In this document: positions 23,775 to 38,800 of the stretch, piece by piece
Numbering within the stretch: position 1 is the stretch's first letter
Layout of the letters: every line of letters begins with the position of its first letter
Assembly (NCBI RefSeq): GCF_014695715.1
Contig: NZ_JACJOT010000001.1
Coordinates: forward strand, 1 to 64,000
Direction: 5' to 3'
Length of the DNA: 64,000 bases
From: Microcoleus sp. FACHB-68
GTDB lineage: Bacteria; Cyanobacteriota; Cyanobacteriia; Cyanobacteriales; Oscillatoriaceae
Notes under the pieces: generated by a model
Told to the model about the DNA's origin: nothing
Database searches by the model: none
The model's input: only the letters and a program-made list of their open reading frames with translations
Translations under genes and position numbers: made by a program

Positions 23775-24635
23775 TTATTCCATCAGAGTCAGGTTGTAGT
23801 GCCGGCACATTTCGAGCAATTCCTTTGCGACTGCCTCGCGCACGTTATCCGGGGAGATGACAACGCAATCTTGCCCATAGCGCAGGACTTCTCGAACCAG
23901 CCAGAAGGGGTAAGTGACACGTCTGACGACTTGGCGCACACCTCCAATAACTTCATCTTGAATATCATGTTGCCTGGGTTCATAGGCTTTCACCATTCCA
24001 CGACAAAAGTGTAAATACACTTTGATAGAGTCTAAACCTTCTTGTCGCCAGGTGCCGGTGATGGGTAAGATTGCTTGGATACGGTCGAAACGCAGACAGC
24101 GATTGTGAATGAGTTCAGGATAAGGGGTGTCTTTGATGTCATCGGTTTCGTCGCACCAGATTTGCAAGTAAAACCGCTTTTCCTCAAAGGAAATCTCGGC
24201 ATAGCGGACGGTGTAGGTTAAGTTTTGCCCCTGACTGTCACAGTAGAGCAGATGAAAGGGTTGGTGATTTTGGCGGTGCCGGTCAACTTCTAGACGCCAT
24301 GCTTGGTTAGGCTGGCTGACTTGTTGCATGATGGTTTGACGCTGTTGAGGGCTGAGGTTTCCCCGCTCTAATGCCAGCGTTGCAAGAATTTCAGCATCTC
24401 GCAGGTGACCGGCATCTGTTAGGGCTTTAATCGCTTGTTGTATGGAGTTGACTTGCTCTTGAGTGAGGCTAAAGGACTGCCCGACTTCTACGTTTCCTTG
24501 GGCGATGGCGACAATTAGCCCAGACGTGCTGGGTTTTTTGCCCCACAGGATATTGAGTCTGGAGGCAATGGCTTCTAGTTTCTCCTTGGTGCCTGGAGGT
24601 ACGGATATTGTAAATGCTTCTGTTTTTCTGGGCAT
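23775..24635 (-). CDS. WYL-domain CRISPR-associated protein (TIGR03985-like)
   Basis: The 286-residue protein is divergent from cas3'. The N-terminus, TISVPPGTKEKLEAIASRLNI followed by KPSTSGLIVAIAQG, looks like a DNA-binding ribbon-helix-helix segment. The middle and C-terminus carry a WYL fold: FHLLYCDSQGQNLTYTVRYAEISFEEKRFYLQIWCDE and RRVTYPFWLVREVLRYGQDCVVISPDNVR. WYL proteins sense ligands, often nucleic acid or nucleotides, and control CRISPR or other defence genes. It probably regulates the I-D operon from the shared 82-bp region. No catalytic motif is seen. Confidence 0.8.
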   Translation of the reverse strand: MPRKTEAFTISVPPGTKEKLEAIASRLNILWGKKPSTSGLIVAIAQGNVEVGQSFSLTQEQVNSIQQAIKALTDAGHLRDAEILATLALERGNLSPQQRQTIMQQVSQPNQAWRLEVDRHRQNHQPFHLLYCDSQGQNLTYTVRYAEISFEEKRFYLQIWCDETDDIKDTPYPELIHNRCLRFDRIQAILPITGTWRQEGLDSIKVYLHFCRGMVKAYEPRQHDIQDEVIGGVRQVVRRVTYPFWLVREVLRYGQDCVVISPDNVREAVAKELLEMCRHYNLTLME

Positions 24636-24638
24636 AAA

Positions 24639-24694
24639 TGTATAAATACACTATTGACAGTTTCTACTATTGTGGTTACAGTTTAAATGTACAT
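24639..24694 (+). promoter_or_regulatory. cas3' promoter with TGTA/TACA palindromes
   Basis: TTGACA (24654-24659), a 17-nt spacer and TACAGT (24677-24682) make a sigma70-like promoter for cas3'. TGTAT-AA-ATACA (24639-24650) lies just upstream, near the WYL start, and ATGTACAT (24687-24694) sits about where transcription would begin. Both share TGTA/TACA half-sites, suggesting a repressor site serving both genes. Confidence 0.55.
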
Positions 24695-24717
24695 GGCGCG
24701 TTCGAGGAAATCCAGCC

Positions 24718-26901
24718 GTGGCAGATTACTCTATTTATTTGAAGCCGGTTTATTCTCGTCTTGCTGATTCTCTGCCGGCAGGTGTGACGTTGCCGAGTCA
24801 TTGGCGTTCGCTGTCATGGCATCAAGTAAAAACCTACGAAGCGCTTAGTGATCCGGCGATTGACGTGGTGTTTAATACAGCAATCACTGGCGATGGTAAG
24901 AGTTTTGCGGCTTATCTGAAACCCCTGGTTGAAAATTGCTACGCGATGGGGCTTTACCCAACAAACGAACTCGCCCGCGATCAAGAAAAGCAAATTCAGG
25001 GGTATATTCAGCGATTGAAATCACCTTATGAACCGCGTGTAAACCGGCTGAGTGGGGCTGATTTGGAAATTTACGCAGAGAATGAAGGACTGAGGAAATC
25101 AGCGGCGATTGATACTCGTGCCGGCCAATCAGAAATTTTGCTATCGAATCCAGATATTTTTCACTACTTGCATCAAGGCGCTTACTTAACGGATAAAGAC
25201 AGCCCTGATAAGCTGTGGGGGAAAATTGATAAATACTTTAATTTGCTGATTTTTGATGAATTTCATATTTTCCAAGCCCCACAGATTGCCAGTGTGCTTA
25301 ATACCATGCTGCTAATTAAGCACACAAATAGGCAAAATAAATTTCTTTTTCTTTCAGCGACTCCCAATGATCAGCTTATCGAAAAATTAGAGATAGCTGG
25401 ATTTCGCTGCCGGCACATCGATCCCTTGAAGGAAGGGAAATATCAGTTTCCAGAATCCGCCGATCAAGGCAAGCAATTAATACAAACCGGCTGGCGGCAA
25501 ATCTTGCGGTATGTTTCTCTTCACTTCATCTCTCTAGAGCCGGCTTTTCAAGCTTCTGAAAATTGGCTGAAAGAAAACAGCCAGCTCGTTTTAGCTCATT
25601 TCCAACAGTATCCGGGTAGTAAAGGGGCAATTATTCTAAATTCAATTGCTGCGGTCAAACGACTTACCCCATTTTTTAAAGAATTGTTCAAGCTTTATGG
25701 GTTAGTGGTTGGAGAAAACACCGGCTTATCGGGTAGCCAAGAAAAGGCAAGTTCGCTAGAAGCTGATTTAGTGTTGGGAACAAGTACCATTGATGTCGGG
25801 GTAGATTTTAAAATTAATTTTCTGATTTTTGAATCCGCAGATGCCGGCAACTTTATTCAACGGTTAGGCAGATTAGGCCGGCATGAGGGTTACGAACGCA
25901 ATGGAGAAAAAATCACGTTTGAGAATTTCACCGCCTACGCTTTGGCTCCAAACTTTTTGATAGAGCGTTTATTTCTGGGGGATAATGCACCTTTAGAAGC
26001 CGGTGCAACTTATACTCGGCCATTTTTTAACAATCAAATTGAAGACAAGTACCGCAAGATTAATAACTTTGAAGGATATTATGGCCGGTGGGGTGCGGTG
26101 CAATCGCTTCTTCTTTGCAGCAAGCTAGGACATAAGACTATCAAGCAACAGTATAAAGATAGCCAGTTAGCCTTTCGCAAAGCTTGCGAAGAAGTCTTCA
26201 AAACAAAGCTTTGGGGTGTTTCAGAGAAGGTTAAGCAATGGAAAGAAGAATGGCAAGATTTATCAGGAAATAAAACCGGCAATCCCGTTGCTGAGGATGC
26301 TTCTAGTTTCAGGGGGTCGAGTTCGCTTCAGTGCGGAATTTACGATTTAACAGAACCGAATGAGGCAGATAGGTTTAAAACTTATGATTTACCGGGAATT
26401 TTGAGCAATTTGGAAATTGAAGTGATAACAAAAGCAGAGTTTATGCGGCTGTTGGAACAAACAGCCGGTCGCCTCGGACAACCCATCCCCAAGGGACGCT
26501 ACGAGTACAGTTTGGCATTTATGAAATTACGCGCCTACCGGCAAGAACGGTTGAACTGGAAGTTTACTTATACGGGTGATTTGCAGCCGGTGGCGGATGC
26601 GTGGAAAGTGCAAGTGCTCACCGGCATCCAAGTTTGGCAGCCTGAAAATTACTGGATTAACGACATTAATAAGCGGCTGAAAAAGCAGGGACTTGTGAGT
26701 TATGCACTCAGCAAGCCGGTGACTGAGGTGCGATCGCGTCTACGGTTGCCAATGCACTTTCAGATATATCCCATCAGCGATAACTACAGCATTCACGATG
26801 CCGGTGCGCCTTATTCCATCGCGTTTGGTCAATCGGCACTACTGGTTGATACGCTGGCCGGCTGGCTGAAAAGCAACGGGGGTGAGATATGGATAGCTTA
26901 A
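24718..26901 (+). CDS. cas3: Cas3' helicase, type I-D
   Basis: This SF2 helicase unwinds and helps degrade target DNA bound by the I-D Cascade. Motif I is ITGDGKSFAAYL, motif II is LIFDEFHIFQAPQ, motif III is FLFLSATP and motif VI lies at FIQRLGRLGRHE. There is no HD nuclease domain, as expected for I-D, where HD sits on Cas10d. I chose GTG 24718 because GAGGA (24704-24708) is 9 nt upstream. A frame-extending TTG at 24670 lies inside the promoter. The protein is 727 residues. A degenerate CRISPR repeat begins 2 nt after its stop. Confidence 0.9.
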   Translation: MADYSIYLKPVYSRLADSLPAGVTLPSHWRSLSWHQVKTYEALSDPAIDVVFNTAITGDGKSFAAYLKPLVENCYAMGLYPTNELARDQEKQIQGYIQRLKSPYEPRVNRLSGADLEIYAENEGLRKSAAIDTRAGQSEILLSNPDIFHYLHQGAYLTDKDSPDKLWGKIDKYFNLLIFDEFHIFQAPQIASVLNTMLLIKHTNRQNKFLFLSATPNDQLIEKLEIAGFRCRHIDPLKEGKYQFPESADQGKQLIQTGWRQILRYVSLHFISLEPAFQASENWLKENSQLVLAHFQQYPGSKGAIILNSIAAVKRLTPFFKELFKLYGLVVGENTGLSGSQEKASSLEADLVLGTSTIDVGVDFKINFLIFESADAGNFIQRLGRLGRHEGYERNGEKITFENFTAYALAPNFLIERLFLGDNAPLEAGATYTRPFFNNQIEDKYRKINNFEGYYGRWGAVQSLLLCSKLGHKTIKQQYKDSQLAFRKACEEVFKTKLWGVSEKVKQWKEEWQDLSGNKTGNPVAEDASSFRGSSSLQCGIYDLTEPNEADRFKTYDLPGILSNLEIEVITKAEFMRLLEQTAGRLGQPIPKGRYEYSLAFMKLRAYRQERLNWKFTYTGDLQPVADAWKVQVLTGIQVWQPENYWINDINKRLKKQGLVSYALSKPVTEVRSRLRLPMHFQIYPISDNYSIHDAGAPYSIAFGQSALLVDTLAGWLKSNGGEIWIA

Positions 26902-26902
26902 A

Positions 26903-27003
26903 GTTTCAATCCCTGATAGGGATTCATTTGAGTGTGACGGAGAGGTTGCAGCTTACGCCACTAAGTCCAGACCTATTTATTTCAATCCCTGATAGGGATT
27001 CAA
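26903..27003 (-). CRISPR. Two degenerate, inverted CRISPR repeats after cas3'
   Basis: GTTTCAATCCCTGATAGGG followed by ATTCA (26903-26926) is a perfect reverse complement of the last 24 nt of the main array repeat. A second copy at 26979-27003 matches 24 of 25 positions (A for G at 26979). The outer 12 nt of each repeat are degenerate. Starts are 76 nt apart, close to the main array's period. On the minus strand each keeps the hairpin and the ATTGAAAC-type handle (ATTGAAAT in the second). Read that way, guide 1 would run from 26978 downward and guide 2 from 26902 into the antisense of cas3'. Confidence 0.75.
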
Positions 27004-27008
27004 TTGGG

Positions 27009-27142
27009 GTCAAAGTCCGTCCAGATTTAACTTTACCACAGAACATCAAGTCTTGACGGATTTGACTGGTTAAATATGTCTGTATGCGATTCCTTGACCT
27101 GTTAATTGGCAGGTGTTAGCGTCAAATTGTCCAGAATTTAAC
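27009..27142 (+). promoter_or_regulatory. Repeated candidate operators upstream of the winged-helix gene
   Basis: GTCAAAGTCCGTCCAGATTT then AAC (27009-27031) recurs as GTCAAATTGTCCAGAATTTA then AC (27121-27142), the latter touching the AAGGAG ribosome binding site. GTCCAGA also occurs at 26965-26971 in the repeat-flanked spacer. ACCTG (27097-27101) and CAGGT (27110-27114) form an inverted repeat between them. TTGACG, TTGACT and TTGACC offer -35-like elements. Autoregulation by the small protein is a plausible reading. Confidence 0.4.
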
Positions 27143-27154
27143 AAGGAGAGCTAT

Positions 27155-27352
27155 ATGAGCATCAAAAAGCGTGTCCACGAACTTTTGTCAGACGGACAAC
27201 CTCACTCAGTCCCTGAGCTAGTGGCAGTTTCTCATCGGTTTAGCGCTGCTATTTTTTCACTTCGTGAGGAAGGATATATGATTCACACAATCCGGGTTGG
27301 CCACAACCAGTATCAATATCAAATGCCACAAGAACAGAAGCAAAGCGCTTAG
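27155..27352 (+). CDS. Small winged-helix DNA-binding protein inside the cas operon
   Basis: The 65-residue protein starts at ATG 27155, 6 nt after AAGGAG (27143-27148). The sequence KKRVHELLSDGQPHSVPELV, SHRFSAAIFSLREEGYMI and NQYQYQMP follows a three-helix plus wing pattern, like small helix-turn-helix proteins of phages (HTH_39-like). It is not a standard type I-D component. It lies on the operon strand between the degenerate repeats and cas10d and is likely a local regulator. The fold call rests on pattern only. Confidence 0.65.
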   Translation: MSIKKRVHELLSDGQPHSVPELVAVSHRFSAAIFSLREEGYMIHTIRVGHNQYQYQMPQEQKQSA

Positions 27353-27689
27353 TTTTTTTTGGGACTCTCTATTTCTTAGAGAGTCCGCACATCAAGCGGG
27401 TAAAAAGGGAAGCCTATCAGTAGCTTGCGGCATTAAGTTCAGGCGTAGGTAATCTCAACCCCCTGACGCTATAAAGGAAAACTTGATAGCAGACGGCTGG
27501 TTAAGTCACTTAGCAAAATAACTTGAATGTTCTCAAACGTTCTGTTCTTTAATAGCTTCCCTTTTCTTTATGATTTTGGTTTTTTAGTTTAATATTTAGG
27601 GAGACAATCGCCTATTTTTAAAGCTTTATAGCAATACCCTTTTTATGCGCGAAAAATTACTAATTACTTAAATTTTGTTGAGATTAAAA
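27353..27689 (+). other. Intergenic between winged-helix gene and cas10d, structured
   Basis: After a T8 run, GGACTCTCT (27362-27370) pairs with AGAGAGTCC (27378-27386); the T run precedes the stem, so this is not a classical terminator. AAAAGGGAAGC (27403-27413) is perfectly complementary to GCTTCCCTTTT (27555-27565), and the pairing extends as TAT/ATA past one bulged C. The enclosed ~140 nt could be a structured RNA or a 5' leader element of cas10d. No ORF of note. Confidence 0.4.
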
Positions 27690-30600
27690 ATGGCTAAAAA
27701 AAGCAAAAAATTAAACGAAGAAGGACATCAGCTATCTTTGTTCGATCAAGACCCAGAAATAGATAATAATCTAGCCGAGGAATCAGAAGATAACTGGACA
27801 CCCGATGAAAATGAAGATGATGGGTTTGGTGAACCCTCAGAGCGCACGGTTGAACCGGCTCGGACTGAGTTACTAACTCTGCAACTCTTGCGGGAAGCTA
27901 TTCAGGCGCAAAATCCTGATGATCCGGTAATGACAGACTTTGCAGAATATGTATTGCCAAATTTGCTGCGAGTTGCGATTGGTGTAACTGCCAAAGGTGG
28001 TAAGTTTTTTGATGAGCTAGATCGCAAACATGAAGCTGAAGGGAAAGATAAAGTTAGACGGGATAATGCTGCGGATCAATCCCTCAATACTCACTTGTTG
28101 AATGGGTTATTTCCGGCAAATTTAATTGAGCAACGCTTGGAAAAAATGGATACCACTGTGCGGCGGGTGGTGCGAGAGCGAGAACGCCGGCTCTTGGTTG
28201 CGGGATTTATTTTGCATGACTTTGAGAAATTCCCAGGCGCTCCAGAAAATTGTCGGCAGCTTTCGATTGAACAGCATCGGCAAATGATTGATGAAAAGGT
28301 GCAGCAACTGGGTTTAGATCGCTTTATCAATCCTGACGATTCCGCAGCCTATAAAAACTATCTTGACGATTTACTGTGTCTGGCATACAACGCTCAACGT
28401 CGGTGGGATACTAACTGGAATTTTTCAGAATTTGGGTTAAATCCTGCTTTGAATGACCGGACGCTGGTTTGCCTTTGCAATTTAACTTGCTTGGCAGATT
28501 CTCTCGCCTCTATTATCAAACATCCCCAAGATGCAGAAAATACACGACTGTACGAATTACTTCACGCTTTAAGTGATGGAAAGCTGAAATTTACTTATCA
28601 CAGCATTGCTGAAAATCGAGGCGTCCTGACAAATGTGGTGAATAATGCCTTGATGGAGGCTCACACCGATTTAAATTCTGATGATTGCACTTACTACGAG
28701 CCTTTGTTGTTTTTAACAACTGGTGTAATTTATTTAGCGATAAAAGACGCACCGCCGGTGCCGGTGGAAACGTTACCAGAAAGAGTGGTAAGCAAGATTA
28801 AGCAATTATGTGCCGGTCAGTTACGCCGACGACAAACCGGCTTCGGCAGAGACGGTAAAGGCATGAAGTATGCCGAATATTACAGCTTGTTTTTTGATGA
28901 CGCGGATTTAATGCGAGTGGCGTTAGATGCAACTTTGCGAATTCTCAATCCTAAAAAAGATTCGGTTGCGGAAAGCCGCAGCGAGAACCTGATAAAATTT
29001 CAACAAGAAATGGGGGTTTTGCCGGCAGATTACGATTTTTCCTTTACTGATGATATCCGGATCGATCAAATCGCAGAATTTGGCGACTTATTGAGCCGGA
29101 AGATTTGGGGAGAAAGGGTAAATAAAATCGAAACTGCTTGCAAGCAAGATAAAAAGCTAGCTAAACTACCCGATCTGGATTTAGTTGTTGAAATTGCTAA
29201 TTTCTGGAATCTCTCAGAATACTTACCCCAAATTCGAGAAATTCAGCGAATTAACGAAAGTCTGAAGGAACAAAAACTCAAAGGTAACACTGGCGGTGTT
29301 CCTTACGAATGGTATTACTTGGCAGCAAAATATCTAGAACATCATCCAGGCGTAGAAGATGTGCGGGAAATTTGTGAACCAACGATCACCCATGTCGCAC
29401 AGCTTATTGCACCGCTTGTCTCATCGTATCAATTGCCGGATGGTTGGGATGACTTGCGCCGGTGGGTAGAACGAGTTGTGATGCTTCCGGGAAAAGCAGA
29501 ATTAAATTCTTCACCGGCAGAGATATTTCTAAATGAGCTAGCCTTCTATCAAGCTGCCAAAAAATCTGGACGGGGACGACAGTTAATTTGCTCAATTTCG
29601 CATTCACCGTACACCGTTACTGAGCAAATGGAATCATCGGTTTTGTTCACTCCGCAAGTTTATACAAATAAACAAATGCTGGGAGGGTCGAACGCAAAAC
29701 GCAATATTTCCAGCATTGCCGGCATTGAAATGATGCTGAGACAAATCTTGATGAACCAAACTCAGGCAGTGGGCAAAAAATTTGAAGATGGTAAGTACCG
29801 CTACCTCTACTTTTATCCTACCTATTACTTCACTCCAGAAACTAACAAATTTCTGCAAAAAGCCTACCAAAATATTGCTCAAACTCGGTTTGATACAAAG
29901 CTTCGCAATCACTTTATCAGCAAGGATTTGCAGGCTAATTTTGAAAAAGACCATTATCAAAGAGTCGATGGCTTTATCATTGATGAAAAAATAGATCATA
30001 GTCAAGACCGTACCTTTAAACTATCTTACCCAGAAGACCAGCCTTTGACCTTCTATTTCATGGCAATGCCTCCGGGACGAGATGGAACGGATACAGAATC
30101 TTGGGTGATGCCGGCTTGGTTAGCCTTTGCTTTTCCAATGATTTTAGATGTAAAAACTGTAGTTTCTGAATCGCCAATTCCGCCATTTAATGATGGTTCC
30201 GAATTTGAGGAAAGCCTATTTCTTGACAGTGCGCCGCAAGCCTTCCGTGTTCTGATAAAAGGTGAGCGTTTCCGTTTAAATTACATTCTTGAAGGTTGGA
30301 CAGATGGCGAGAGACAATACCCAGCACCTTTAAAGGTTCTTACTGCTGCTTATGCCATTCATCTTGATGTCAACGCTCGCCAGGGTAAAACTGGTTATGA
30401 CCCTAACTGGGGGAAATTTTCCGAACTGGCTAAGGATCTTGAAACCAGTCCGCTTTACGTTTTTGCGTATCTAAATCGATGGGTTCGCAATCAAGGAGTT
30501 GAAACGGCTCGGATTGAGAAAATCAAACTGTATGCCCACCGCTTTTATCCTTGTTTTGATCCTTACGTTGAATTTGACGCTGAAACCGCAACATTAATGG

Positions 30601-31079
30601 TAAAAAATGAGGTTAAATCTAGCATGAACCATCCGAAGAAATTGACGGAACTATACTGCCGATTTTACCGCGCCAATAAGCGCTACAATCCCAAGGCAAA
30701 TGCAGTTTTAAAGCCGATAGATGTGGCGGCAGATACCCTTCTCAAAGCCGATCCAAGTTTTGAAGGCGAGGCATTAGTTCATGTAGTGGCGGCAGAAGTA
30801 TTTAAGTTAATGGATCGCGTTCGCGCTTCGCGTGCGGAAGGCTTTGCGGTGATAAGCAACCGAGAGGAAGAACGCGAAGCGATTTTAGATTTTGCTCGCT
30901 ACTTTGTTGTGGATGTATTTGAGCAAGCTTTTGCCGGCGATCGCGCTCGTTTAGCTGGCCGTCAGCTTAACTTGTACAAAGATACTTGCGAATTTTTATA
31001 TCGTTTGGAGAACGATAAATACAATAAAGCGCAAGACAACAAAAATGCCGAGGAAGAATCTGAGGCAACAGAGGAATAG
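27690..31079 (+). CDS. cas10d: Cas10d (Csc3), type I-D large subunit with HD nuclease
   Basis: This is the large subunit of the I-D effector. In I-D it also carries the HD nuclease that degrades target DNA with Cas3'. The HD motif is LLVAGFILHDFEKFPG, with further family context at LVCLCNLTCLADSLAS. The region RQLICSISHSPYTVTEQ to LMNQTQAVGKKFEDG is the palm-like core without GGDD, normal for Cas10d. The C-terminal ~200 residues are helical and acidic, ending EEESEATEE. I use ATG 27690 rather than TTG 27675. The acidic N-terminal ~60 residues look disordered. About 1129 residues. Confidence 0.9.
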   Translation: MAKKSKKLNEEGHQLSLFDQDPEIDNNLAEESEDNWTPDENEDDGFGEPSERTVEPARTELLTLQLLREAIQAQNPDDPVMTDFAEYVLPNLLRVAIGVTAKGGKFFDELDRKHEAEGKDKVRRDNAADQSLNTHLLNGLFPANLIEQRLEKMDTTVRRVVRERERRLLVAGFILHDFEKFPGAPENCRQLSIEQHRQMIDEKVQQLGLDRFINPDDSAAYKNYLDDLLCLAYNAQRRWDTNWNFSEFGLNPALNDRTLVCLCNLTCLADSLASIIKHPQDAENTRLYELLHALSDGKLKFTYHSIAENRGVLTNVVNNALMEAHTDLNSDDCTYYEPLLFLTTGVIYLAIKDAPPVPVETLPERVVSKIKQLCAGQLRRRQTGFGRDGKGMKYAEYYSLFFDDADLMRVALDATLRILNPKKDSVAESRSENLIKFQQEMGVLPADYDFSFTDDIRIDQIAEFGDLLSRKIWGERVNKIETACKQDKKLAKLPDLDLVVEIANFWNLSEYLPQIREIQRINESLKEQKLKGNTGGVPYEWYYLAAKYLEHHPGVEDVREICEPTITHVAQLIAPLVSSYQLPDGWDDLRRWVERVVMLPGKAELNSSPAEIFLNELAFYQAAKKSGRGRQLICSISHSPYTVTEQMESSVLFTPQVYTNKQMLGGSNAKRNISSIAGIEMMLRQILMNQTQAVGKKFEDGKYRYLYFYPTYYFTPETNKFLQKAYQNIAQTRFDTKLRNHFISKDLQANFEKDHYQRVDGFIIDEKIDHSQDRTFKLSYPEDQPLTFYFMAMPPGRDGTDTESWVMPAWLAFAFPMILDVKTVVSESPIPPFNDGSEFEESLFLDSAPQAFRVLIKGERFRLNYILEGWTDGERQYPAPLKVLTAAYAIHLDVNARQGKTGYDPNWGKFSELAKDLETSPLYVFAYLNRWVRNQGVETARIEKIKLYAHRFYPCFDPYVEFDAETATLMVKNEVKSSMNHPKKLTELYCRFYRANKRYNPKANAVLKPIDVAADTLLKADPSFEGEALVHVVAAEVFKLMDRVRASRAEGFAVISNREEEREAILDFARYFVVDVFEQAFAGDRARLAGRQLNLYKDTCEFLYRLENDKYNKAQDNKNAEEESEATEE

Positions 31080-35888: not shown

Positions 35889-38800
35889 CTTGAAATTCCC
35901 TTGAATCCCTATCAGGGATTGAAACGTGTGAGTCACCTGCTTTTCCCGCCAGCCGGCAGGACTTGAAATTCCCTTGAATCCCTATCAGGGATTGAAACGC
36001 TTACCGAGCACAATCTAAATCAAACCCTGCCAACTTGAAATTCCCTTGAATCCCTATCAGGGATTGAAACTTGCCGCTGCCGGTGGGACCATATACCAGA
36101 ATGCGATTCTTGAAATTCCCTTGAATCCCTATCAGGGATTGAAACAATGGGGCCTGCGAAGTGTCTGCCCTTCATCAGCACCTTGAAATTCCCTTGAATC
36201 CCTATCAGGGATTGAAACGACTTGGATTTGCTCATCATCACGAGTAATTATCCTTGAAATTCCCTTGAATCCCTATCAGGGATTGAAACTCGACAGTGTA
36301 ATCAAGGCGCTCTACCAATGGATGCTTGAAATTCCCTTGAATCCCTATCAGGGATTGAAACAGGCAGGGGCCAAACAGTAGCATCCCAGCAATGCGACTT
36401 GAAATTCCCTTGAATCCCTATCAGGGATTGAAACCGAGCATATCGATGGTGCCGGCCTTAACCTTGGCACTTGAAATTCCCTTGAATCCCTATCAGGGAT
36501 TGAAACAAACTGCCTCAGCAAACCTTAACTAGCAAAAATAGCTTGAAATTCCCTTGAATCCCTATCAGGGATTGAAACAGGATGAGCGAACTTGGCAGTA
36601 GTGCGGGCGCGGCTGTCCCCTCTTGAAATTCCCTTGAATCCCTATCAGGGATTGAAACTGCAGCATGAGTGATTTGTTCCATCAAAATGCAGAAACTTGA
36701 AATTCCCTTGAATCCCTATCAGGGATTGAAACGTGCCATCCAATAGCGATGCTAAGCATTCAGCAGCTTGAAATTCCCTTGAATCCCTATCAGGGATTGA
36801 AACCCATCCCACTGCCCAACGGCTTGGTACTGCGGGAACTGCCTTGAAATTCCCTTGAATCCCTATCAGGGATTGAAACCCTCACTCTTTATTGGTTCGT
36901 CGGTCTGAGCTTCCCTCTGACTTGAAATTCCCTTGAATCCCTATCAGGGATTGAAACTTCATGGCTATTTTTGCTAGTTAAAGGGTTTGCTGACTTGAAA
37001 TTCCCTTGAATCCCTATCAGGGATTGAAACCCGAATCGGACAACTTTGTCTTTTCAGGGACAACCTTGAAATTCCCTTGAATCCCTATCAGGGATTGAAA
37101 CGATTGCTAACTCAATGGGCGGCCCGTATAGCCGCTCATCTTGAAATTCCCTTGAATCCCTATCAGGGATTGAAACTTCTGGAAACTGGGGATTGCTATA
37201 GAAGTTTAGAGACTTGAAATTCCCTTGAATCCCTATCAGGGATTGAAACTTTAAGAGAGTTGTAAAATGGGCGTTTTTCTTTCCTTCTTGAAATTCCCTT
37301 GAATCCCTATCAGGGATTGAAACTTAGGCTGTAAGTTGTTAGTACAAGCGGTAAATGCTTGAAATTCCCTTGAATCCCTATCAGGGATTGAAACAGGCAG
37401 CGACGCCAGCCTTAGACTCTAGCTCTGCGGTGCGCCCCGGCTTGAAATTCCCTTGAATCCCTATCAGGGATTGAAACGTTAAATTCAGTAAGTTTTATGG
37501 CAGCTTTGGCCACTTGAAATTCCCTTGAATCCCTATCAGGGATTGAAACAAGACTTCTTGGGGCATCATTAAAAGGATGCTTTGGCTTGAAATTCCCTTG
37601 AATCCCTATCAGGGATTGAAACGAATCCGTGTTTTCAACTAATGCATTCTTGTAGTCTTGAAATTCCCTTGAATCCCTATCAGGGATTGAAACTAGAATT
37701 TTCGCTTGCACTTCTTTGCTTCTGGCGGTATCGCTTGAAATTCCCTTGAATCCCTATCAGGGATTGAAACGCCCCCAGAAGAGGATGAAAAAAAAAATAT
37801 CAGCGACCCCACTTGAAATTCCCTTGAATCCCTATCAGGGATTGAAACAAGATTGTTGCCAACGTTCCGCCGTCAGTGCTAGTAACTTGAAATTCCCTTG
37901 AATCCCTATCAGGGATTGAAACAACTTGACGATTTAATGCTTTATCGATTGCACTGCATCTTGAAATTCCCTTGAATCCCTATCAGGGATTGAAACCAGC
38001 AAGCCAGGGTGAGACATCCCAATATGATTCAAACTTGAAATTCCCTTGAATCCCTATCAGGGATTGAAACCCAAGAAAACAATATCTAGTCCTAAATCAA
38101 GACAGCCTTCAACTTGAAATTCCCTTGAATCCCTATCAGGGATTGAAACACGCTCCGGAATACCCAGAGCATGATTACTTTTCAGAAGCTTGAAATTCCC
38201 TTGAATCCCTATCAGGGATTGAAACCCTTTCGATCCACCTGTAAGCGCAAGCGTGTTGCTGCTTGAAATTCCCTTGAATCCCTATCAGGGATTGAAACAT
38301 TCTGTGCGGAGCTTCCTACGCTAAAATCAGGGCTTGAAATTCCCTTGAATCCCTATCAGGGATTGAAACCTGATTCGGCTGAATCAATACAGGCAAGCCT
38401 AATTCTTGAAATTCCCTTGAATCCCTATCAGGGATTGAAACGTAGGGTTGGAATTGTCGGAAAGTCTCAGGTAGAGAATTCCTGTCCTTGAAATTCCCTT
38501 GAATCCCTATCAGGGATTGAAACGCTTCAGGAAAAATTTAGCAGTGGTGACTGGCAATCTGTACTTGAAATTCCCTTGAATCCCTATCAGGGATTGAAAC
38601 CCCAAAGGCATTTCTACAATTCTTAGCTGCATAACTTCTTGAAATTCCCTTGAATCCCTATCAGGGATTGAAACACTCCACCTAGTTTGCTGATTGCATT
38701 ACAGAGATTCTTGAAATTCCCTTGAATCCCTATCAGGGATTGAAACTACCGGGTGTTATCAAGTGAAGGAACGCACCGCTACCAACTTGAAATTTCCTTG

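Follow-up and report, generated by a model that had tools for sequence, protein, structure and literature searches.

Background

The closest described relatives of the element reported here are the guide RNAs of the CreTA, CreR and CrePA types. Examples of CreTA come from type I-B systems of Haloarcula and Halobacterium and from type I-F in Acinetobacter (PMC8501985, PMC9458426), and in two-repeat creA genes the first repeat keeps the 5' handle and the second the 3' hairpin (PMC8501985). CreR is a crRNA-like autorepressor of cas operons in type I and type V-A systems (reviewed in PMC12737573), and in CrePA the CreA guide represses a protein toxin, CreP, a KilA-N protein that interferes with FtsZ (PMC12737573). 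Type I-D is not mentioned in the two CreTA papers (PMC8501985, PMC9458426), nor are mini-arrays in a review of type I-D systems (PMC10212523).

The DNA analyzed here (hereafter the window, meaning the whole stretch of 64 kb) contains a complete cyanobacterial type I-D locus, with a mini-array of degenerate repeats behind cas3'. Like CreA, this mini-array consists of two divergent degenerate repeats around one spacer, has no leader, is encoded in a cas locus, and is partly complementary to a neighboring promoter beside a PAM (PMC8501985, PMC9458426). It differs from CreTA, where the toxin is a tRNA-sequestering RNA, in that its partner is a small protein gene, the Cascade is that of type I-D, the PAM is GTT or GTC, and the guide lies antisense directly behind cas3'. 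With CreR it shares a crRNA-like guide that would steer Cascade to a promoter within its own cas locus (PMC12737573), but the target promoter here belongs to a variable small gene preceding cas10d and, unlike in CreR, a separate gene is coupled to the guide. As in CrePA, the guide is predicted to repress an adjoining protein gene, although the small proteins of the families called W, C and Q below matched no CreP-like or KilA-N family in Pfam or NCBIfam.

Regulatory mini-arrays, in which two repeat-like sequences flank a spacer, were reportedly surveyed by Shmakov et al. in 2023, mostly in type I systems, and their spacers are said to match, in part, the promoters of cas or cargo genes. The class (CreTA, CreR, mini-arrays) is known, and type I-D cases may already be contained in that survey.

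Results and discussion

A degenerate, inverted repeat pair follows cas3'

In the type I-D locus of the window (Table 1), cas10d is followed by csc2, csc1, cas6, cas4, cas1 and cas2 and then, from position 35889, by an array whose 37-nt repeat (CTTGAAATTCCCTTGAATCCCTATCAGGGATTGAAAC) is present in 65 copies. The interval between cas3' and cas10d comprises the mini-array, which starts 2 nt past the cas3' stop codon, and one small ORF. A preliminary description of this DNA had reported two inverted, hairpin-bearing partial repeats 76 nt apart behind cas3', and we recovered exactly this pair. Repeats A and B, of 22-25 nt each, represent the handle-proximal part of the array repeat in inverted orientation and are without its outer ~12 nt, and their start-to-start spacing agrees with the size of the array unit (71-76 nt). 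The stem AATCCCT/AGGGATT is intact in both and is predicted to fold in minus-strand RNA. At up to two mismatches, A and B are the sole forward copies in the 6.5-Mb genome, and among the matches listed the opposite-strand copies make up two arrays of this repeat, with none outside arrays except A and B. An Rfam scan matched the array repeats only and left the mini-array unmatched.

Table 1 Features of the type I-D locus and its mini-array, in window coordinates
Feature	Positions	Strand	Details
WYL-type gene, divergent	23775-24635	-	
cas3' (type I-D helicase)	24670-26901	+	TIGR03158, E = 2e-110; stop codon 26899-26901
Degenerate repeat A	26903-26926	-	GTTTCAATCCCTGATAGGGATTCA; would supply the 3' hairpin (Cas6 site) of the guide
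Predicted guide (spacer)	26943-26978	-	5' end at 26978: AAATAGGTCTGGACTTA...; about the first 17 nt matched to the target
Degenerate repeat B	26979-27002	-	ATTTCAATCCCTGATAGGGATTCA; would supply the 5' handle ATTGAAAT of the guide
Candidate -10 of the guide's own promoter	27030-27035	-	TAAAGT, with TG before it; from sequence
PAM	27069-27071	+	GTT; matches the known GTN
Partial protospacer	27072-27107	+	AAATATGTCTGTATG...; seed 10/10; mismatches at positions 6 and 12
Candidate small-gene promoter	27094-27122	+	-35 TTGACC (27094-27099), 17 bp, -10 TAGCGT (27117-27122); score 9.5
Small winged-helix protein gene, family W	27155-27352	+	65 aa; Shine-Dalgarno AAGGAGAG; presumed regulated gene
Conserved element after the W gene	27406-27564		Degenerate second guide copy (~54 nt) and half-handle, in direct orientation
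cas10d (csc3), first downstream Cascade gene	27675-31079	+	TIGR03174

The two repeats have diverged in the manner of a two-repeat creA gene

For comparison, we assembled a non-redundant set of 91 loci that share a homologous cas3'. Most related I-D loci carry two repeats at the identical position, at a spacing whose median is 75 nt, so that the comparison called for in the preliminary description came out in favor of conservation; on these sequences a chance origin of the pair is excluded. The two copies are not equally preserved: the handle core ATTGAAA is present in the cas3'-distal repeat B in 59/59 loci and in the cas3'-proximal repeat A in only 29/59, and the stem is retained by both repeats in 53/59. 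Viewed across these loci, the asymmetry is that of a two-repeat creA gene transcribed from the minus strand, and the pattern is one of selection on a single guide that would take its handle from B and its hairpin from A. The mini-array accordingly has the build of a crRNA-like unit, a single spacer between a 5' handle and a 3' hairpin that both derive from repeats. In the loci L062, L090 and L094, the stem of the mini-repeats tracks the array repeat of the same locus.

The preliminary description had envisaged one or two regulatory guides. The first is upheld by a covarying partial match, described below, while a second guide made of repeat A and the antisense end of cas3' found no support, as the handle of A is often lost.

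Guides and targets covary beside a type I-D PAM

A seed match next to a GTN-type PAM had been suggested for two intervals, the region between the mini-array and the small gene (27004-27154) and the WYL-cas3' promoter (24636-24717). The former contains one at 27069-27082, where GTT is followed by AAATATGTCTG with 10/10 seed positions matched and positions 1-5 and 7-11 fully paired, and this seed-plus-PAM pattern occurs a single time in the 6.5-Mb genome. The latter does not: a scan of the locus found no target site of the guide in the WYL-cas3' promoter. GTN is the established PAM of type I-D (PMC10212523).

The guide-target pattern recurs with altered sequence in dozens of genomes, and most guides match their own locus at the same place. 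The 64 guides available show 23 distinct first 5-mers (seeds elsewhere include ATGAC, ACAGA, GAATA, TTCCG, CTCGC and TTTCT), and 53 of the 64 have, when no PAM is required, a seed match of 9/10 or better no more than 500 nt away; of these 53 sites, 51 bear GTT or GTC. When guides were swapped among loci as a control, matches of at least 9/10 were found in ~3% and the PAM bias was absent. Eight of the 64 guides had no PAM-flanked target at a seed match of 8/10 or better. Across the loci scanned, of ~15 kb each, the sites lie almost exclusively 150-330 nt downstream of cas3'. The spacer is partly complementary to a PAM-flanked, promoter-near site of the same locus.

Pairing is segmented in a way that resembles DNA recognition by Cascade, in which positions 6, 12 and 18 are flipped out in type I. 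GTC and GTT are the sole PAMs of the 52 distinct guide/target pairs, in which the match rate is 0.92-1.0 at positions 1-5, 0.25 at position 6, 0.79-1.0 at positions 7-11 and 0.23 at position 12. Most matches are also conserved at positions 13-15, those at 6, 12 and 18 are no more frequent than expected by chance, and complementarity declines past about 16-17 nt. The loci are related and the pairs thus not fully independent, with the many distinct seeds as a safeguard. As read from these alignments, the covariation, the PAM and the segmented pairing are evidence for selection on a DNA-targeting guide held short of full complementarity. Together with the shortened repeats, a conserved guide that is matched to a neighboring site also sets the mini-array apart from an ordinary CRISPR array.

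Several guides (L047, L049, L056, L126, L045 and L089) have two sites, overlapping or close and on opposite strands, an arrangement that suggests paired binding of Cascade.

The target adjoins promoter-like sequences of a variable small gene

In the window, the candidate -35 of the small gene falls within the protospacer. In alignments of winged-helix loci, the target immediately precedes or covers a TTGACA/TTGCAA-like -35, and in those of C and Q loci it covers the stretch of the -35 and -10. A promoter scan near the targets gave a mean score of 8.1 vs 7.0 in shuffled sequences, a modest excess, with -10 positions that vary; because this statistical signal is modest, the assignment of the target to the small-gene promoter draws mainly on the alignment. 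In relatives, -10-like elements, modestly more frequent than in shuffled sequences, are found 17-60 nt upstream of B, and transcription of the guide RNA could begin from them.

The small gene of the window encodes a protein with an AlphaFold pLDDT of 88, weak ArsR/MarR-like matches and a PADLOC assignment to 'HTH' (PDLC01152, E = 4e-11); its family, W, aligns over 23 members with a conserved protein reading frame. In different loci this slot is taken by five or more mutually unrelated families of small proteins, namely W (winged helix), C (coiled coil), Q (two clamp-like motifs), H (helix-turn-helix-like) and R, with single cases of other families too. Searches of family libraries, including Pfam and NCBIfam, found no toxin family match for W, C or Q, and the PADLOC 'HTH' hit is confined to W. 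Guide and small gene occur together: in the 91 loci, 67 have both, 21 neither, one the guide alone and two the small gene alone (Fisher p = 2e-17; a few loci were assigned by eye), and in both loci with the small gene alone, which belong to the primary I-D lineage, this gene is damaged by truncation or fused.

The distance from the small gene to cas10d ranges from 26 nt to more than 2 kb and is 26-57 nt in some C-type loci. A terminator scan of mixed outcome placed hairpins behind many of the W genes and some of the Q genes, and these may separate the small gene from cas10d, which would weaken direct autoregulation of cas genes. Where further genes lie between the small gene and cas10d, they are often toxin-antitoxin genes.

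The cas3'-cas10d slot gathers extra genes, for instance in L008, L009 and L112, including what we take to be DUF433-like genes and a DUF1016-like family of ~339 aa. Behind the C gene of L008, L009 and L048 there is a stretch like the anticodon and variable part of tRNA-Thr (CCGACTTGTAATCGGAAGGTCG); a tRNA gene behind C-type genes was rejected, since ARAGORN finds none there, and the stretch is not a complete tRNA.

Q-family genes (e.g., L108:3215-3403 and L121:3117-3302) encode two invariant clamp-like motifs, QLELFD and QLELDLFP, and their products might be ligands of the beta clamp or competitors of Cas10d. Within its first ~25 residues, Cas10d itself carries QLSLF (in the window ...EEGHQLSLFDQ) or QLSLL in many homologues; QLSLF resembles the bacterial beta-clamp-binding motif, and a link between I-D Cascade and the replication clamp is conceivable.

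A second I-D lineage carries W genes without guides

Homologues of W also adjoin a divergent I-D effector (Cas10_Id, Csc2, Csc1), between a WYL gene and cas10d'. Six loci of this second lineage have a mini-array, and in 6/6 the seed matches at 10/10 positions beside GTT or GTC, whereas 8/14 W loci have no mini-array at all and W is there the first gene before cas10d'. These eight guide-free loci indicate that W is tolerated without a guide and need not be a toxin. The guide-target arrangement is thus found again in the second lineage, and its guide-free loci argue against W as a simple toxin and for W as a cas-linked regulator. In L137 of this lineage, an MntA/HepT pair was identified in the slot. 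Further W homologues lie within longer ORFs (~138-145 aa) in L128, L133, L134, L145 and L147, and no I-D genes were found near them.

A model of Cascade-guided repression and its alternatives

The element is best read as a Cascade-directed, crRNA-like repressor of the CreA/CreR type in a type I-D system. The likeness to CreR and CreTA guides drawn in the preliminary description holds at the class level, through the handle/hairpin anatomy and the PAM-flanked partial target. From features present in the sequence itself (the repeats and their asymmetry, PAM-flanked covariation, a promoter-like neighborhood and linkage to a small gene) we infer transcription, processing, binding, repression and a role in feedback, as follows. 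A minus-strand promoter beside B would drive a short RNA, which Cas6 would cut at A and B into one crRNA-like guide with the handle of B and the 3' hairpin of A. The I-D Cascade would take this guide to 27069-27107, where the PAM-proximal ~17 nt can pair next to GTT, and, once bound, would block the promoter of the small gene preceding cas10d; as pairing is incomplete at this site, Cascade should not recruit Cas3'. Abundant free Cascade would in this way lower the expression of the small regulator, and perhaps also of the Cascade genes downstream, most likely as a negative feedback. We give this model as a whole a probability of roughly 0.6.

Its parts are not equally secure. That Cascade, guided by the RNA, represses the promoter of the small gene is highly likely, and given the joint change of guide and target in dozens of cyanobacteria, a CRISPR effector very probably serves here as a gene switch and not as a weapon. 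The W protein probably regulates the cas locus. As to whether feedback on cas genes is the purpose of the guide in winged-helix loci, we see about even chances; feedback is favored for the W type by the guide-free W genes of the sister lineage and is also supported by the short distance to cas10d in some C-type loci.

The main rival, above all for loci of the C, Q, H and R types, is an addiction or guard module like CreTA or CrePA, in which the small gene would be a toxin that arrests growth and the guide its RNA antitoxin, so that loss of Cascade or an anti-CRISPR is punished. Such a module would account for the use of one slot, under one guide type, by five or more unrelated families (W, C, Q, H and R), and for the joint loss of small gene and guide, which has left deletion scars in L048, L069 and L112; primary I-D loci almost never keep the small gene without the guide, the hairpins past W and Q genes noted above suggest units that stand alone, and Q proteins bear two beta-clamp-like motifs. 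It sits poorly with the W homologues that are guide-free in eight second-lineage loci and stand first in the effector operon, with W as a plain winged helix, and with the lack of toxin matches for W, C and Q in family libraries, and we regard it as possible but doubtful. A broader scheme, an exchangeable cassette of guide, operator and small gene between cas3' and cas10d, with small genes from at least five families under one type of RNA-guided repressor, Cascade as both sensor and switch of guard or regulator proteins, and Q acting via the replication clamp, which the N-terminal QLSLF-like motif of Cas10d also seems fit to bind, is offered tentatively and may well not hold.

The other alternatives fare less well. 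If the guide chiefly repressed its own divergent promoter or tuned its own level, with the small gene as a bystander, the position of the target between the guide promoter and the small gene would be understandable, as Cascade could occlude both; this is nevertheless improbable, for the protospacer overlaps or abuts the -35 of the small gene, lies upstream of the guide's -10, and guide and small gene are lost jointly. The preliminary description had also considered that the plus-strand stems are Cas6 sites shaping the cas3' mRNA, to which one may add other RNase sites or a terminator or attenuator. Palindromic stems do fold on both strands, and a location directly behind cas3' fits a transcript end, but a plus-strand function leaves the retention of the B handle, the loss of the A handle and the guide-target match unexplained; what persists is the minus-strand handle and its covarying guide, and we disfavor this proposal slightly more strongly still. 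Least probable of all is a decayed, functionless remnant of a former array: the repeats are indeed shortened, and parts are missing in L063, L066, L086 and L103, yet the B handle is kept in every locus compared and guide and target covary in many genomes with the PAM and the flipped-out positions respected.

If the preferred reading of a Cascade-guided repressor is true, Cascade-guided self-regulation extends to type I-D in a widespread bacterial group, on comparative evidence that is unusually clean. The natural guide/target pairs would then reveal which PAMs and bases are required by a Cascade that regulates, and at what point pairing has to end so that binding stays short of cutting, and several uncharacterized small protein families would be named as likely CRISPR-tied effectors or regulators.

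A probable duplicated guide unit behind the W gene

Equivalents of the ~150-nt element that follows the W gene were found in about 23 other W-type loci. It has ends of ~9 bp (AGGGAAGC...GCTTCCCT), and a structured RNA was rejected, as RNAalifold gave no consensus structure on either strand. Judged from its sequence, the element is probably a duplicated guide unit through which the W cassette can be excised. Both L069 and L090 lack the W gene and the target and retain a single composite guide copy, as expected from recombination between two guide copies, and these scars indicate that the cassette can be lost cleanly.
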